This document shows, in pieces, positions 2,551 to 7,878 of a DNA stretch of 64,000 bases. The notes beneath the pieces are model-generated. The model saw only the letters and a list, made by a program, of their open reading frames with translations, was not told the DNA's origin and ran no database searches. Every line of letters starts with the position of its first letter. Within the stretch, counting starts at the first letter, position 1. Made by a program: the position numbers and the translations under genes. The DNA is from Pseudomonadales bacterium (lineage in GTDB: Bacteria > Pseudomonadota > Gammaproteobacteria > Pseudomonadales > DC-out160), in assembly GCA_019090455.1 (NCBI GenBank), contig JAHRWA010000030.1, positions 62,001 through 126,000 of the forward strand, written 5' to 3'.

Positions 2551-3768
2551 ATGAGAAGAGTAGTTGTCACAGGCATTGGTATTGTCTCTTGCATCGGAAA
2601 CGACAAAGAAGCCGTTCTGGAATCATTAAAAGAGGGACGGTCCGGCATCCAACTTAATGAAGAATACAAAAAGCTCGGATTCCGTAGCCATATCAGCGGA
2701 AAAATAGATATTGATTTTGCAGAGCACATCGACCGAAAAGCAAAACGATTTATGGGAGATGCCGCTGCATATGCTTACATCTCCCTAAAACAAGCGATCG
2801 AAGATGCCAATTTAACGGAAGAACAAGTTTCGAATGAGCGTACGGGCCTTATTGCGGGTTCCGGTGGCGCATCTTCTTCCGCCCAAGTGATTGCCGCTGA
2901 CACACTACGCAACAAAGGACTCAAACGAGTCGGTCCTTATGCTGTCACAAAAACCATGGCAAGCACTGTTTCAGCTTGCTTAGCCACTCCCTTTAAAATA
3001 AAGGGCGTTAACTACTCCATTGCCTCCGCCTGCGCTACCAGCGCACACTGCATTGGCAATGCGATTGAACAAATACAATTGGGCAAACAAGATATTATAT
3101 TTGCGGGTGGCGGTGAAGAAGAAGATTGGTCACTGAGCTGTATGTTCGACGCCATGGGCGCCCTGTCCAGCAAATACAATGATAATCCCAGCTCTGCCTC
3201 TCGAGCATTCGATCAAACGAGAGACGGCTTTGTCATTTCAGGCGGCGGTGGCATGTTGGTAGTAGAAGAATTAGAGCATGCAAAAAACCGAGGTGCGAAA
3301 ATTTATGCCGAGCTAGTGGGATATGGAGCCACATCCGACGGCTACGATATGGTTGCCCCCTCAGGTGAAGGCGCGACCCGCTGTATGAAGCAGGCGATGA
3401 GCACCGTTAAAGGCGACATTGATTACATCAATGCCCATGGTACGAGCACCCCAGCAGGAGATGTTGCGGAACTTAAAGCCATCAAAAATATTTTTGGAGA
3501 TAAGGCGCCTTTTGTCAGCTCCACTAAGTCTCTTACCGGGCATTCATTGGGTGCTACAGGCGCTCAAGAAACTATTTATTGCCTACTCATGATGCAACAT
3601 AATTTCATTAGTGCATCCGCGAATATTACCGCCTTAGCGGAAGAAGCCGAAGGTATTCCAGTCGTCACTGAACGTAAAAATGATGTCATCCTAAACCGGA
3701 TGATGTCTAACAGCTTTGGCTTTGGCGGAACCAATGCCAGTCTCGTCATTCAACGCTATGAAGAATAA
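2551..3768 (+). CDS. fabB: 3-oxoacyl-ACP synthase I FabB
   Basis: Condensing enzyme that elongates cis-3-decenoyl-ACP and later intermediates, needed for unsaturated fatty acids. With the start at 2551 the protein is 405 residues, one less than E. coli FabB. The thiolase-fold catalytic triad is visible: Cys161 ([11 protein letters not shown]), His296 (NAHGTST) and His331 ([11 protein letters not shown]), and the C-terminal [12 protein letters not shown] glycine loop. I prefer this start over upstream in-frame codons because AAAGGA lies at a good distance and the protein then begins MRRVVVTG like its family. Confidence 0.97.
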
Positions 3769-3839
3769 GCTCAGCTAAAACAATACGCCCCCAGATGCAT
3801 TCAACTGCTTCTTGCAATCAACCCAATCTATTTAACTCA

Positions 3840-3884
3840 CTGAATTTATAATGACTGTGGAGATTTCACCTCTTATAAATTCAG
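3840..3884. repeat. 12-bp perfect inverted repeat upstream of the DUF6502 gene
   Basis: CTGAATTTATAA at 3840-3851 is exactly repeated as its reverse complement at 3873-3884, with a 21-base loop. There is no U-tract after it. It lies 71 bases after fabB and just before a second, tighter palindrome, so the pair may be part of the control region of the next gene, or the mark of a small structured element. Confidence 0.6.
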
Positions 3885-3891
3885 CGCAAAT

Positions 3892-3924
3892 GCATAAATG
3901 TGGGAATTATTCCCACATTTATGC
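3892..3924. promoter_or_regulatory. 33-base perfect palindrome, candidate operator
   Basis: GCATAAATGTGGGAAT is followed by one T and then its exact reverse complement, giving 16-bp arms around a single central base. Such tight symmetry is typical of a binding site for a dimeric regulator and too tight for a good RNA hairpin. It ends 56 bases before the DUF6502 start codon. The regulator is unknown; the DUF6502 protein itself, which carries an HTH-like stretch, is one candidate (inference). Confidence 0.6.
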
Positions 3925-3980
3925 TATCCTAACAGATGCACTTTGCAGAGAAACCTTATTGGGCAGGCATGAAATAAAAA

Positions 3981-4865
3981 ATGGCAGAGAACAAGGGCAA
4001 TCATTTACCTCACTCCACTGGTCAGGAGCCACCCTCTAGCTTGCTTGCTGCATTGCGTCACCTCTTACGTCCCCTAGTCAAACTACTTTTGCACTATCAA
4101 ATCACCTACCCTGTTTTAAGCGATATGCTCAAATCTATTTATGTCCAAGTGGCTAATGAAGATTTCCCCCTTCCAGAAAAAAAACAAACTGACAGTCGCA
4201 TTAGCTTATTAACCGGAGTGCATCGCAAAGACATCAAACGACGATTGCATCAACAAGATTCTGGAGACAGCACCCCTCAACCCCCCTTAATGGCGCAGTT
4301 AATCGCCACTTGGCTGAGTGATCCACGCTACTGCGACAACAAAGGCAAGGCGCTACCCTTACCACGCCTCAAAACCCAGCAAGAAATTGTTAGCTTTGAA
4401 TCCTTAGTTGAGAACGTCAATAAAAAAGACCTTAGAGCGCGGGTAGTGCTAGATAACTGTCTTCACCAAAATACTGTGTACATAGATGAAAATGACAGGG
4501 TACATTTAAATTTCGAAGCATTTGTACCCGAACACGGGTTGGAGGACAAAGCCGCCTTCTTTGGCAATAATCTGCATGACCACTTTGCCGCTGCTGGACG
4601 AAATTTAACGGATAATTCACCCGCTTTTTTTGATCGAGCTGTTTATTACAACCATTTAACACCTGAATCTGTTGAAAAGTTATCAGGCCTGGCCAATGAA
4701 CAAGGCATGGAATTACTGAAATCCGTCAACCGGCTCGCAAAACAATTTCAACAAGCCGACCATGGAAAAGATGAAGCATTGCAGCGCATCAACTTAGGCT
4801 TATTTTTCTTTCATGAATTAAAGTCTGACGACGAAATCCAAGATAAGGATCAGCTCAATGAATAA
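3981..4865 (+). CDS. DUF6502 family protein, putative DNA-binding
   Basis: Conserved protein of unknown function, 294 residues and apparently cytoplasmic: no signal peptide or membrane segment. An N-terminal part (about residues 20-95) looks like a winged or helix-turn-helix fold, with the stretch SRISLLTGVHRKDIKRRL resembling a recognition helix-turn-helix; the rest is mixed helical. I assign it to DUF6502 from recall of this N-terminal pattern. Its stop overlaps the start of the next gene by eight bases, so the two are translationally coupled. A perfect palindrome lies just upstream. No strong ribosome site precedes the ATG. A transcriptional regulator role is an inference. Confidence 0.75.
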   Translation: MAENKGNHLPHSTGQEPPSSLLAALRHLLRPLVKLLLHYQITYPVLSDMLKSIYVQVANEDFPLPEKKQTDSRISLLTGVHRKDIKRRLHQQDSGDSTPQPPLMAQLIATWLSDPRYCDNKGKALPLPRLKTQQEIVSFESLVENVNKKDLRARVVLDNCLHQNTVYIDENDRVHLNFEAFVPEHGLEDKAAFFGNNLHDHFAAAGRNLTDNSPAFFDRAVYYNHLTPESVEKLSGLANEQGMELLKSVNRLAKQFQQADHGKDEALQRINLGLFFFHELKSDDEIQDKDQLNE

Positions 4866-5157
4866 ATGGCAAACTATGACGGTCATAGGGATGATCAGCG
4901 TTGGTATTGCTAGTGTTGCAACACCCATTGCCGCTTATAATGGGCCAGACCCCGATGAAGGCGGAATAGGTGGCACTGGCAACATTGACGATCCGAGTTC
5001 AGGAAGACCCGACATTATTGAACGACCCGAGAGGCCGGAACGTATCGAGCACATAGAACGCCCGGACATGGAAGATCGATCCTCATCACCCACTAATTTT
5101 ATCGATGACGTTGGAAGCCCTGAAGGCGCAACTCAAAACGATGCACCAAAGCCATAA
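4858..5157 (+). CDS. Small exported protein with GGIGGTG motif
   Basis: The 99-residue product starts with a signal peptide (hydrophobic stretch about residues 6-24, likely cleavage near PIAAYNG). The mature part is low in complexity and acidic: a GGIGGTGNID motif, then arginine/proline/glutamate repeats (ERPERPERIEHIERPD), then a Ser/Pro-rich tail. It overlaps the DUF6502 gene by eight bases. From memory, DUF6502 genes often neighbour exported DUF5666 proteins that carry GGIGGTG; here only the motif is present and no DUF5666 domain follows, so this may be a shortened member. Function unknown. Confidence 0.65.
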   Translation: MNKWQTMTVIGMISVGIASVATPIAAYNGPDPDEGGIGGTGNIDDPSSGRPDIIERPERPERIEHIERPDMEDRSSSPTNFIDDVGSPEGATQNDAPKP

Positions 5158-5188
5158 GCTTCTCTTTGAAACAACTCCAACCTCAAGA

Positions 5189-5965
5189 TTAAAATCGAAA
5201 AGAGGCACCAACACCCATGCCATATTGAGCACTGCTATTATTCAAACCTAGCAGGCCATAAGGACTAATCTTCCAGTCTTTATTAACGGGCAGTGAATAA
5301 AAGACACTGAGCTCCTGAATATCGTGACTATCCATTTTTGATTCGGTTCGAATATCATAGAATATTCCCCATGAACGTCCGCCATCTAAACTTTGGCTAA
5401 AACCCAAAGATAAGGCTCTAATATCCTTCAACGATAAATCTTCGGGCTGCCCCCGACGGTTATAGCTCAAAGTCAAAAGCCCATAGAAATGTGGAAACAG
5501 CTTAATAAAATCGAATACCACTTTCTGATCCGCCTCCCCTGTCCCTAAGCCCTTACTTTCATCAGCCAAAGGAATTTTCAGTATCAATCTTCCATCCACC
5601 CATATACGACCTGGCAATGGTGTTTGAAATTGATAAGTCATGGCTAAACGAAGATCACCGACGCCCGACTCTACCTCATCGCGAATAACGACAGTACCCT
5701 CTTCTGTAGTCGTGCCATTAATATCACCTGGCCCATCCACGCTTACCCAGCTTGAAGACACTTTAAATTTCCAGGGTTTCTTCTTATAGCTCCAAGAAAT
5801 GGGAACAATGGAGAATGAGGTTTTCTCATCCCGATCGTAATCACCAGAATAATGGTACGCCCCAACATTCAATTGCTGTTGCGCCCGTACAGGGGAACTA
5901 TAAAGAGAGGCACTACAGAGCATCGCCCATACAATCAAGCCTGCCAACCCGCGACCAACCCTCAT
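5189..5965 (-). CDS. Outer-membrane beta-barrel-type protein, function unknown
   Basis: The 258-residue product has a signal peptide (hydrophobic residues about 7-22, cleavage likely after VRA), then alternating polar/hydrophobic strands and a terminal phenylalanine (ASFRF), the usual end of an outer-membrane barrel. The whole mature part looks like one barrel of about 230 residues, similar in style to MetA-pathway phenol-degradation or transporter-type barrels, but I cannot assign a family. A clear GGAGGTG ribosome site precedes the ATG at 5965. It converges on the GGIGGTG gene and follows the four-repeat gene on the same strand, separated by a terminator. Confidence 0.7.
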   Translation of the reverse strand: MRVGRGLAGLIVWAMLCSASLYSSPVRAQQQLNVGAYHYSGDYDRDEKTSFSIVPISWSYKKKPWKFKVSSSWVSVDGPGDINGTTTEEGTVVIRDEVESGVGDLRLAMTYQFQTPLPGRIWVDGRLILKIPLADESKGLGTGEADQKVVFDFIKLFPHFYGLLTLSYNRRGQPEDLSLKDIRALSLGFSQSLDGGRSWGIFYDIRTESKMDSHDIQELSVFYSLPVNKDWKISPYGLLGLNNSSAQYGMGVGASFRF

Positions 5966-6121: not shown

Positions 6122-7834
6122 TCAAGATTTACATTTTTTAATCATCGATTCAATGGTTGCTTTGAAATTACGTGCATTTCCCAAACTGGATTGTAGAAGC
6201 GAGAAATCAGAAACGTATTTTGACTTTTTCCCATCATAGACCTTGATGATCTTTTCGCTATAATTAGTTTGCAATCCCACCTCTACTTTTTTCCCTGAAA
6301 TATTGATTTCAACTGCCTTTTCATCCAAATCATTTAGATTAAAATCATAGACATTCTCAGCCACTTTATTCTTCTTCGCCAATGCAGAACTGAACGTCAC
6401 TTTGCATTGACTATTGGCAGTTTTCCTTGCCATTTTTTGGGTCAATCCAGGGAGATCCACATTAGCGGCAGCTACATTTGCAACCAACCACGTCCATTTT
6501 TGAGGAATAGGTTTAACCGCACATTTATCAATAACTTTACTCATGATGTAAACGACAGCTTTAGCTGAATCCACACTCTTTACCGGAAAAGAAATTTTAT
6601 TGGTATAGCTTTTTTGCTCCCCGTCTTTAAAAGCTTTAACGTATTTTTGCTTTTCTTTAATCTGCGAAGTCACACTTAATAACTTACCCGACACCTTAAT
6701 TTCAACTGAGTTTTCTTGCAGATCACCAAAATTAAATTGTGCAATTTCTTCCGTTATTTTCCCCGCTTTTTTGGTGGTTGCAAGACGATAGCTAGTGATG
6801 CATTTAGAATCCAGAGATTGATCTATACTGTCACTTCCATTTTGGAATGGCTGTATATGCTTGCTGATTGCATTCAACAACTGCTGCTTAGAAGTGGCAA
6901 CGGATAGACGTTTAACCAGCGCTTTTCCAGCCGGCTCTACTAAATTGACTAACAGCCTTTGCATTATACGCGCCTCATCAACATCATTCGCATAAAGTTC
7001 TATTTTGTTGGAATACCCCTTCAACTCACCATTCACTGTCAATCTTACGACTTTCAAATCCCGTTTTGTTTTCGCTAGGACTTGAAGATCTTTACCTGTA
7101 TTGATAACGACAGATTGCTCCAACAAATCTGCCATACTAAATTCTTGCTTAGTGAGAGTCTGCTTCCCCTTCGAATTAATTTCAGTCGTCGTGACCACTA
7201 ACTTGTCACTCACTTGATTCACCAGTGCTATCTCTTGCAACAAGGTCTTTGAACCACTTTGTGAATTCACTTGTATATCTTTAAGTTTTCTCCTCATTTG
7301 ATCATATGCATTAAAATTGATACCAATAATTTTATTCCAACTGGTATCCGCTAGGGGAATTGCTTTAATAAAAAAATCTTTTATCGCCCTAGCACTATCG
7401 ATATCAATAGCCGTAATTTCGAGATCACTAACATAACGTTTTTTCTTCCCGTCTTTGCTGCTACTAATAAATTTCTGTGCATCTTTGGTTTTAAGAGCAA
7501 CGACAATGGCTGTGGAACCAGTGACATAATTTACCAGCCTGACATCTATGTCGGAAAGATTAAAATCCCACCGTTCTACCGACTCAGATCCTTTCTTTAA
7601 ATTGATGGTGGTCGCAACCAGAGAGACTTTATGTGGCTTATCCGCAGAGTAAGTTAACACTTGAACAAGCTTCTTCTTCTCCGATTGAATTTCGGTCAAT
7701 TGCACTTGAATCTGCGACAACAAGGTCTTAAGGCTCTGACTAGCAGCATGCACCTCAACACAAAAACAGAGCAAAAATGCGGTGATAATGAAATTAAAAA
7801 TATTTGGTTTTGTGGTTCGTCCACCAGAATTCAT
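6122..7834 (-). CDS. Exported protein with four tandem diverged repeats, unknown function
   Basis: About 570 residues with a signal peptide (hydrophobic stretch FIITAFLLCFCV, cleavage probably after EVHA). I do not recognise the family. The mature protein consists of four copies of a module of roughly 130-140 residues. Each copy ends in a block of the form F-N-L-x-D-(L/I), then SGK or TGK, a hydrophobic strand ending in KT or TN, a KDGKKKxY-(V/T)-(S)-(D/N) loop, and a (D/G)-x-A-(R/K) helix; these blocks begin near residues 91, 232, 367 and 498. The last two modules hold conserved cysteine pairs (KC ... KC) suggesting disulfides in the periplasm. I prefer the ATG at 7834 (weak TTGGA seven bases upstream) to a TTG at 7846. 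Iterated sites lie upstream. Confidence 0.75.
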   Translation of the reverse strand: MNSGGRTTKPNIFNFIITAFLLCFCVEVHAASQSLKTLLSQIQVQLTEIQSEKKKLVQVLTYSADKPHKVSLVATTINLKKGSESVERWDFNLSDIDVRLVNYVTGSTAIVVALKTKDAQKFISSSKDGKKKRYVSDLEITAIDIDSARAIKDFFIKAIPLADTSWNKIIGINFNAYDQMRRKLKDIQVNSQSGSKTLLQEIALVNQVSDKLVVTTTEINSKGKQTLTKQEFSMADLLEQSVVINTGKDLQVLAKTKRDLKVVRLTVNGELKGYSNKIELYANDVDEARIMQRLLVNLVEPAGKALVKRLSVATSKQQLLNAISKHIQPFQNGSDSIDQSLDSKCITSYRLATTKKAGKITEEIAQFNFGDLQENSVEIKVSGKLLSVTSQIKEKQKYVKAFKDGEQKSYTNKISFPVKSVDSAKAVVYIMSKVIDKCAVKPIPQKWTWLVANVAAANVDLPGLTQKMARKTANSQCKVTFSSALAKKNKVAENVYDFNLNDLDEKAVEINISGKKVEVGLQTNYSEKIIKVYDGKKSKYVSDFSLLQSSLGNARNFKATIESMIKKCKS

Positions 7835-7878
7835 AAATATATCCAATTGCGATTAACGCGAAAATTAATTTATTTAAA

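Follow-up and report, generated by a model that had tools for sequence, protein, structure and literature searches.

Two perfect inverted repeats stand in front of a gene of the DUF6502 family (PF20112) in a Pseudomonadales genome, and this gene overlaps another for a small protein with a signal-peptide-like start. What the repeats are for, which protein reads them and how the exported protein is involved are the questions that this locus raises. We addressed them by comparing the locus, part of a 64,000-nucleotide stretch of DNA referred to here as the window, with DUF6502 loci of the same order and of other proteobacteria. DUF6502 is an uncharacterized Pfam family: a literature search that covered few subscription papers and no bioRxiv preprints returned no paper on DUF6502 or PF20112, and we found none that describes the cassette. 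In the accessible parts of the literature, DUF5666 figures as an entry in a gene list and GGIGGTG, according to title and abstract, in antifungal peptides. The reading that we develop below, and consider likely, is that DUF6502 is an autorepressor of an envelope cassette, acting via a TGGGA-N5-TCCCA palindrome in its own promoter. Its computed basis consists of the conservation of the operator, its co-occurrence with DUF6502, the match between site class and protein clade, the position of the site in promoters, the pairing with an exported partner, the neighborhood of an outer-membrane barrel and the predicted folds.

The DUF6502 Locus and Its Inverted Repeats

A preliminary description of the locus, confined to positions 3840-5157, had reported two perfect inverted repeats within 85 bp, and both are indeed exact (together 3840-3924; Table 1). 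Inverted repeats with arms of at least 12 nt and a loop no longer than 25 nt arose in 0 of 200 dinucleotide-preserving shuffles of positions 3700-5300. The idea that the palindromes form a conserved element holds for 3892-3924 and fails for 3840-3884, which has no match in the sister genome (87% complete) and was rejected as a conserved element. With up to three mismatches allowed, the 33-bp palindrome occurs at a single place in the host genome (5.55 Mb searched, in 106 contigs). It reaches past the conserved core on both sides (GCATAAAT/ATTTATGC), an extension not seen in the sister genome. Operator-like matches with up to three mismatches number 15 in the window versus 16.3 expected, so that only the site at 3900-3916 counts, and a second operator in the window was rejected. 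The core lies immediately 5′ of TGCTATCCT, and if this is the extended -10 box that we propose, the operator would cover the -35 region and the spacer. A general promoter scan that required TTGACA-like boxes did not list this candidate promoter, which is of the extended -10 type.

The 294-residue protein, in which an HTH-like stretch had been noticed, matches PF20112 over residues 21-281 with 111.2 bits (cut-off 27). The host genome holds a second DUF6502 gene on a different contig, and here too the next gene overlaps; its motif is GGIEGTG.

Table 1. Features of the DUF6502 locus (positions in the window) and A/T-centered sites found away from DUF6502 promoters
Feature	Position or locus	Strand	Details
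Inverted repeat	3840-3851/3873-3884		12-bp arms, 21-nt loop, exact
Palindrome	3892-3924		Arms 3892-3907/3909-3924, 16 bp, 1-nt center, exact
Operator core TGGGAATTATTCCCA	3901-3915		15-bp site inside the 3892-3924 palindrome; core conserved 5′ of DUF6502 genes
Proposed extended -10 TGCTATCCT	3922-3930	+	Sequence match, putative promoter; sister genome has TGCTATAAT
DUF6502 (PF20112) gene	3981-4865	+	294 aa; Pfam match; proposed autorepressor
Helix-turn-helix segment DSRISLLTGVHRKDIKRRL	4191-4247	+	Residues 71-89; predicted DSSP helices 71-78 and 82-89
Predicted exported partner	4858-5157	+	99 aa; signal-peptide-like N terminus, GGIGGTG, ERPERPE tail; export predicted from sequence
GGIGGTG motif	4960-4980	+	Partner residues 35-41
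Predicted outer-membrane beta-barrel protein	5189-5965	-	258 aa; convergent to partner; outside the coordinates of the preliminary description
Off-locus site	L088, window's genome		5′ of Beta_propel (PF09826) lipoprotein
Off-locus site	L216, G038		5′ of Beta_propel (PF09826) lipoprotein
Off-locus sites	L213 (two sites, 35 bp apart) and L214; two genomes, one genus		5′ of secreted trypsin-like protease
Off-locus sites	L212 (6686) and L215 (6665); same two genomes as L213/L214		5′ of transglutaminase/7TM/ATP-grasp protein
Off-locus site	L089, window's genome		5′ of OMP-like barrel

The Palindrome Is Conserved Upstream of DUF6502 Genes

Whether relatives share the palindrome was a question left by the preliminary description, and they do. 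We scanned about 220 bp 5′ of each DUF6502 gene for TGGGA-N4..7-TCCCA, using Markov shuffles of the same segments as the null. In the window's order, 30 of 54 DUF6502 genes have a perfect site and 15 a site with one mismatch, where shuffles lead us to expect 0.1 and 1.7, respectively. The 80 named loci, which are the best 80 of at least 558 confirmed matches from a genome scan and include Pseudomonas, Aromatoleum, Azoarcus, Rhodocyclaceae, Pseudohongiella, Thiotrichaceae and others, gave 29 perfect and 33 one-mismatch sites (0.1 and 2.6 expected). A site within one mismatch was absent 5′ of 9 of the 54 and 18 of the 80 genes. After thinning to proteins of less than 60% identity, perfect sites remained at 19 of 53 loci and sites with at most one mismatch at 38 of 53, and at less than 50% identity the corresponding numbers were 12 and 22 of 33. 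The DUF6502 locus of an Azospirillum lipoferum plasmid has the site GTGGGAAAATTTCCCAC; among three plasmid loci read, two from Rhizobium (L219, L220) yielded no operator. On these Rhizobium plasmids the DUF6502-DUF5666 pair is kept with a 4-nt overlap, and a chemotaxis receptor gene lies downstream.

Control upstream segments from the named loci, for which some of the listed ORFs are probably spurious, contained a perfect site in 28 of 359 cases and a one-mismatch site in 3 of 359, and do not form a clean null. Many of these 28 sites precede genes for exported proteins, from which we infer a local regulon.

Two Site Classes Follow the DUF6502 Tree

The sites fall into two classes, with a center of either 5 or 6 bp. 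In a FastTree tree of 134 proteins, a split with a support of 0.998 parts a clade of 33 from the rest; in this clade all 24 sites are of the six-bp class, while the proteins outside it have 81 five-bp sites and one six-bp site, and 28 of the 134 have no site within one mismatch. Three pairs of loci (L090/L102, L075/L135 and L083/L165) apparently represent the same genome twice and are included in all counts of 134. The copy in the window belongs to the five-bp group and the second copy of the host genome to the six-bp clade. Four genomes (G000, G007, G140 and G255) carry two paralogues, each with a site of its own class within one mismatch; G140 has in addition a third copy without a site, and in G001 and G049 the six-bp-clade copy has its site at two mismatches. 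The helix-turn-helix segments also differ by class, as in TDSRISLLTGVHRKDVKRLR for five and SRISVLTGINRKDIAKI for six; in this comparison some rows are marked NA and supply no segment. In evolutionary terms, the match of class and clade amounts in essence to a single split and should not be counted as a series of independent events.

Sites of the six-bp clade often reach to just before the ATG and contain a -10-like TATAAT or TACAAT, as in TGGGAATACAATCCCAAACATG, a layout that suggests, as far as the DNA letters go, a leaderless transcript. The second host DUF6502 gene (L005, G000:C31) has in front of it TGTGATGTATGTCACA, a perfect match to a CRP-type site, about 41 bp (manual count) 5′ of its putative leaderless start. 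L002, from the sister genome, shows a similar layout.

Co-occurrence of Site and Gene, and a Candidate Regulon

DUF6502 is present in 41 of the 293 genomes of the order, several of which belong to one family (f44) and are hence not independent, and GTGGGA-N5-TCCCAC is found in 32 of 293. The form with an A/T center, GTGGGA-(A/T)5-TCCCAC, occurs 25 times, in 15 of the 41 DUF6502-positive genomes and 0 of the 252 negative ones; these figures come from two tables compared by hand, with both scans taken to cover the same 293 genomes from their equal settings and handles, and with a DUF6502 scan that lists not all negatives. In the other 17 site-bearing genomes the center contains G or C, and none of them is in the DUF6502 list. 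When named DUF6502 genomes were searched, the strict A/T-centered site appeared in 23 of 30.

Fifteen of the 25 A/T-centered sites lie at DUF6502 promoters and 10 elsewhere. Two of these 10 are inside ORFs (G040, G206; L217, L218), look like chance occurrences and were dropped from the regulon list; the remaining eight are 5′ of genes for exported or membrane proteins (Table 1). The clearest promoters (L088, L212, L214 and L215) consist of a TTGACG/TTGATG/TTGACG-like box, 17 bp that hold the palindrome, and a -10-like box, so that with a site like CTTGACGTGGGATTTTTTCCCACATACTCT the -35 and -10 boxes are 17 bp apart. Several sites in Pseudomonas lie 5′ of genes for glycine-rich exported proteins adjoining DUF6502.

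In three Pseudomonas loci (L246, 7561; L249, 11090; L250, 4712), the strict operator is 160-190 bp from an Adenosine_kin (PF04008) gene, with glycine-rich exported genes on its other side. Four loci (L096, L097, L251 and L252) have a gene that we label alpha/beta-hydrolase-like divergent to DUF6502, with operators between the two or at gene starts. In L212, a TPR protein adjoins the transglutaminase/7TM/ATP-grasp gene.

The Exported Partner and the Outer-Membrane Barrel

The partner ORF overlaps the DUF6502 ORF by 8 nt, and the small secreted protein with GGIGGTG and ERPERPE that the preliminary description had placed there was recovered, with its signal-peptide-like start. As a partner in other loci we counted an ORF of at least 40 residues with G-x-x-G-T/S-G within its first 150 and a start between -130 and +260 of the DUF6502 stop. 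By this definition, 120 of 134 loci have a partner, and in 51 of these the start offset is -3, a 4-nt overlap. The pairing is conserved: a partner follows DUF6502 in 72 of the 80 named loci, versus 26 of 315 when, as a matched control, the same criteria were applied behind other genes of these loci. A first control, with 44 of 802, took single ORFs where the test accepted any ORF of sufficient length, and was the easier of the two. DUF5666 is present in 45 of the 65 partners scanned, in line with the link between DUF6502, GGIGGTG proteins and DUF5666 given in the preliminary description. The protein in the window had been set apart as lacking this domain, and it has no Pfam match at E ≤ 1, and hence no DUF5666 (PF18914). 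Among the other partners, Beta_propel is found in that of L100, LVIVD repeats in that of L093 and fibronectin-type domains in that of L094; the Beta_propel partner, from G055, has the motif GISGTG, and the L039 partner resembles it at its start.

We aligned 65 motif-bearing partners free of X, the window's and 64 complete ones from named loci (alignment A5). Besides M1, only G36, G38, G39, T40 and G41 are invariant or nearly so, a conservation that is partly due to selection by the motif, for which G38 was not required. Two or more R/K/I-P-E within the last 130 residues, counted after residue 40 for short partners, occur in 39 of 65 partners versus 7 of 673 other ORFs, and the ERPERPE of the window's partner is a short form of this common E-R-P-E type tail. 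Because it shares both the glycine motif and the tail, the protein looks like a signal peptide, GGIGGTG and a tail without the middle domain. Partners shorter than 130 aa were counted in 15 loci, the window included, of which L103 is cut by masked bases and L090 and L102 are from one genome. No G-x-x-G-T/S-G partner was found in L123, L125, L128 and L143. These four loci have, 3′ of DUF6502, a lipoprotein-like gene (ACGGGGTSSG or similar) with a perfect site of its own.

The conserved locus extends past the 3840-5157 of the preliminary description to the barrel gene. Its family is found near DUF6502 in 51 of the 80 named loci or, if only the 68 loci that extend at least 2.8 kb downstream are counted, in 49; it lies on the same strand in Pseudomonas and Aromatoleum, is convergent in window-like loci and lies upstream in a few. 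None was seen in the six-bp-clade loci, most of which hold only 1.5 kb downstream. With Phenol_MetA_deg (PF13557; cut-off 22), the window's barrel scores 14.8 bits, below the cut-off, and its relative in L252 30.9 bits. L251 and L252 have a palindrome between the barrel gene and a divergent TPR protein; 5′ of the window's barrel gene the best operator candidate has three mismatches and was rejected. Adjoining the barrel gene is a gene for an exported-looking protein of 574 aa (6122-7846, minus strand), with no Pfam match above cut-off and no relative among the fetched loci.

Predicted Fold of DUF6502

Within the helix-turn-helix segment, D71, R73, T78, G79, H81 and R82 are invariant in the DUF6502 alignment (A2). 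In the AlphaFold2 models of both the window protein (pLDDT 78, pTM 0.63) and Pseudomonas L127 (pLDDT 89, pTM 0.77), the N terminus forms four helices that include a helix-turn-helix, the middle is a winged helix and the C-terminal part is helical. Among the matches listed, the PDB entries that matched the middle (residues ~100-184 of the window model, 83-166 of L127) were largely winged-helix proteins with Z of 5 to 6.6, in a tool for which Z under 8 may be noise and no match reached 8. By prediction, then, DUF6502 has an HTH/winged-helix DNA-binding fold, the structure that the preliminary description had anticipated. A scan of 58 members gave, besides DUF6502, only weak single HTH-family matches, and no viral relative was found in the viral contigs searched.

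The MarR, IclR and DtxR repressors supply winged-helix rows for model residues ~100-184, but to judge from the models DUF6502 differs from them by its additional N-terminal helix-turn-helix and C-terminal helical part. In sigma/anti-sigma and similar pairs, the gene of a cytoplasmic regulator overlaps that of an exported protein. Unlike these, the DUF6502 partner starts in a signal-peptide- or lipobox-like manner, and no sigma-factor family was listed for DUF6502.

Proposed Mechanism and Alternatives

We propose for DUF6502 the role of a one-component DNA-binding protein that is probably dimeric and would bind TGGGA-N5-TCCCA (with a 6-bp center in the sister clade) over its own core promoter, its predicted target sequence being GTGGGAATTATTCCCAC. 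Once bound, it would repress its own gene together with the overlapping GGIGGTG gene, the two presumably being coupled in translation, and in several genomes it may also repress other exported-protein genes that have the same site in their promoter. DUF6502, its exported partner and the outer-membrane barrel would thus form an envelope cassette under feedback control. What is sensed could be the state of either the exported partner or the envelope, since the constant pairing with an exported motif suggests that the signal may report on one or the other. The autoregulated DNA-binding protein coupled to an envelope protein, as first suggested for this locus, gains support from the conserved palindrome, the pairing and the predicted folds, with binding and repression as the putative steps.

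The palindrome could instead be the site of a different regulator, DUF6502 being only one target, given that some DUF6502 loci have no site and that its binding by DUF6502 is what we infer. We hold this to be quite unlikely, because the A/T-centered site is found in none of the 252 DUF6502-negative genomes sampled, because site spacing follows the DUF6502 tree and because the paralogues of G000, G007, G140 and G255 each have their own class within one mismatch. An activator binding in the promoter is unlikely as well: the sites cover a -35/-10 spacer of the normal 17-bp length, or the -10 itself, and operators in these places usually block polymerase. What speaks for activation are the HetR rows among the fold matches and the autoregulation of HetR, described as positive feedback (PMC4649674). 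That the palindrome is a terminator, an RNA hairpin or a mobile repeat without regulatory role is highly improbable; it does form a long perfect hairpin ~120 bp 3′ of the fabB stop, but it is present in one copy in the genome, has no T run 3′ of it, and its core is conserved at promoter positions in distant genomes.

The comparison with HetR bears also on the signal. RG(S/T)GR peptides, one of them derived from the Sec-exported PatX, free HetR from the GGG/CCC palindrome to which it binds (PMC4649674, PMC4192349, PMC12756182, PMC7761841). A peptide from the exported partner might likewise bind DUF6502 and free it from DNA. DUF6502 resembles HetR with its PatS/PatX/HetN peptides in length, in the GGG/CCC palindrome and in having as its partner a small exported protein whose short motif is rich in glycine, PatX being a small Sec-exported protein with HRGTGR (PMC12756182). 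The folds may match weakly over the whole length: HetR gave the top three Foldseek matches of the window model (best E 2.9e-3, probability 0.99), and among the rows listed by VIA it alone aligned over nearly the whole length of both models (Z 7.7, rmsd 10.8 for the window; Z 6.4 for L127). These Z values are within the tool's stated noise range, however, and HetR is not in the Foldseek top 50 of the L127 model. No relation in sequence was found: an hmmsearch of PDB with alignment A2 had no HetR match; hhalign against a HetR profile gave a probability of 0.1, underpowered because this thin profile consists of two 90%-identical sequences; a HMMER test of HetR against shuffles and real ORFs gave 1.9 and -1.5 bits, with 5.2 for the best of 1000 shuffles; and a global profile alignment scored below the shuffle mean, leaving unsupported a co-linear motif order of DUF6502 and HetR seen by eye. 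HetR_C (PF18460) was not listed in 58 DUF6502 proteins at E ≤ 10, with filters that drop most weak matches, and was found neither in the host genome nor in control genomes. Moreover, HetR needs GGG-N5-CCC (PMC4649674), in contrast to GGG-N7-CCC or GGG-N8-CCC here; the window's partner has GGIGGTG and neither RGSGR nor RGTGR; the gene pair overlaps; and the hosts are proteobacteria rather than cyanobacteria. As site spacing, motif and sequence all differ, we do not file DUF6502 as HetR. Release by a partner peptide in the manner of HetR/PatX, a bold reading supported at the level of the fold, is rated quite unlikely, and it is quite improbable, by this analogy, that DUF6502 and its partner would be a Pseudomonadota-wide counterpart of HetR-PatX in which the G-x-G-G-T-G segment of the exported partner would switch DNA binding; if that were true, export or cleavage of the partner would report the state of the envelope or of neighboring cells.

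With DUF6502 as the probable autorepressor, the predicted regulon is one of exported proteins, namely beta-propeller lipoproteins, a trypsin-like protease and glycine-rich proteins, plus two partner genes. Several uncharacterized families, the DUF5666 proteins, the PF09826 propellers, the GGIGGTG/E-R-P-E proteins and the barrel family, would come under a shared control circuit, and the cassette of a regulator and an exported protein, often with a barrel, is common to many proteobacteria. DUF6502 itself, which occurs in Pseudomonas, Aromatoleum, Rhizobium plasmids and other proteobacteria, would thereby turn into a regulator that can be tested on a named site of 15 bp.
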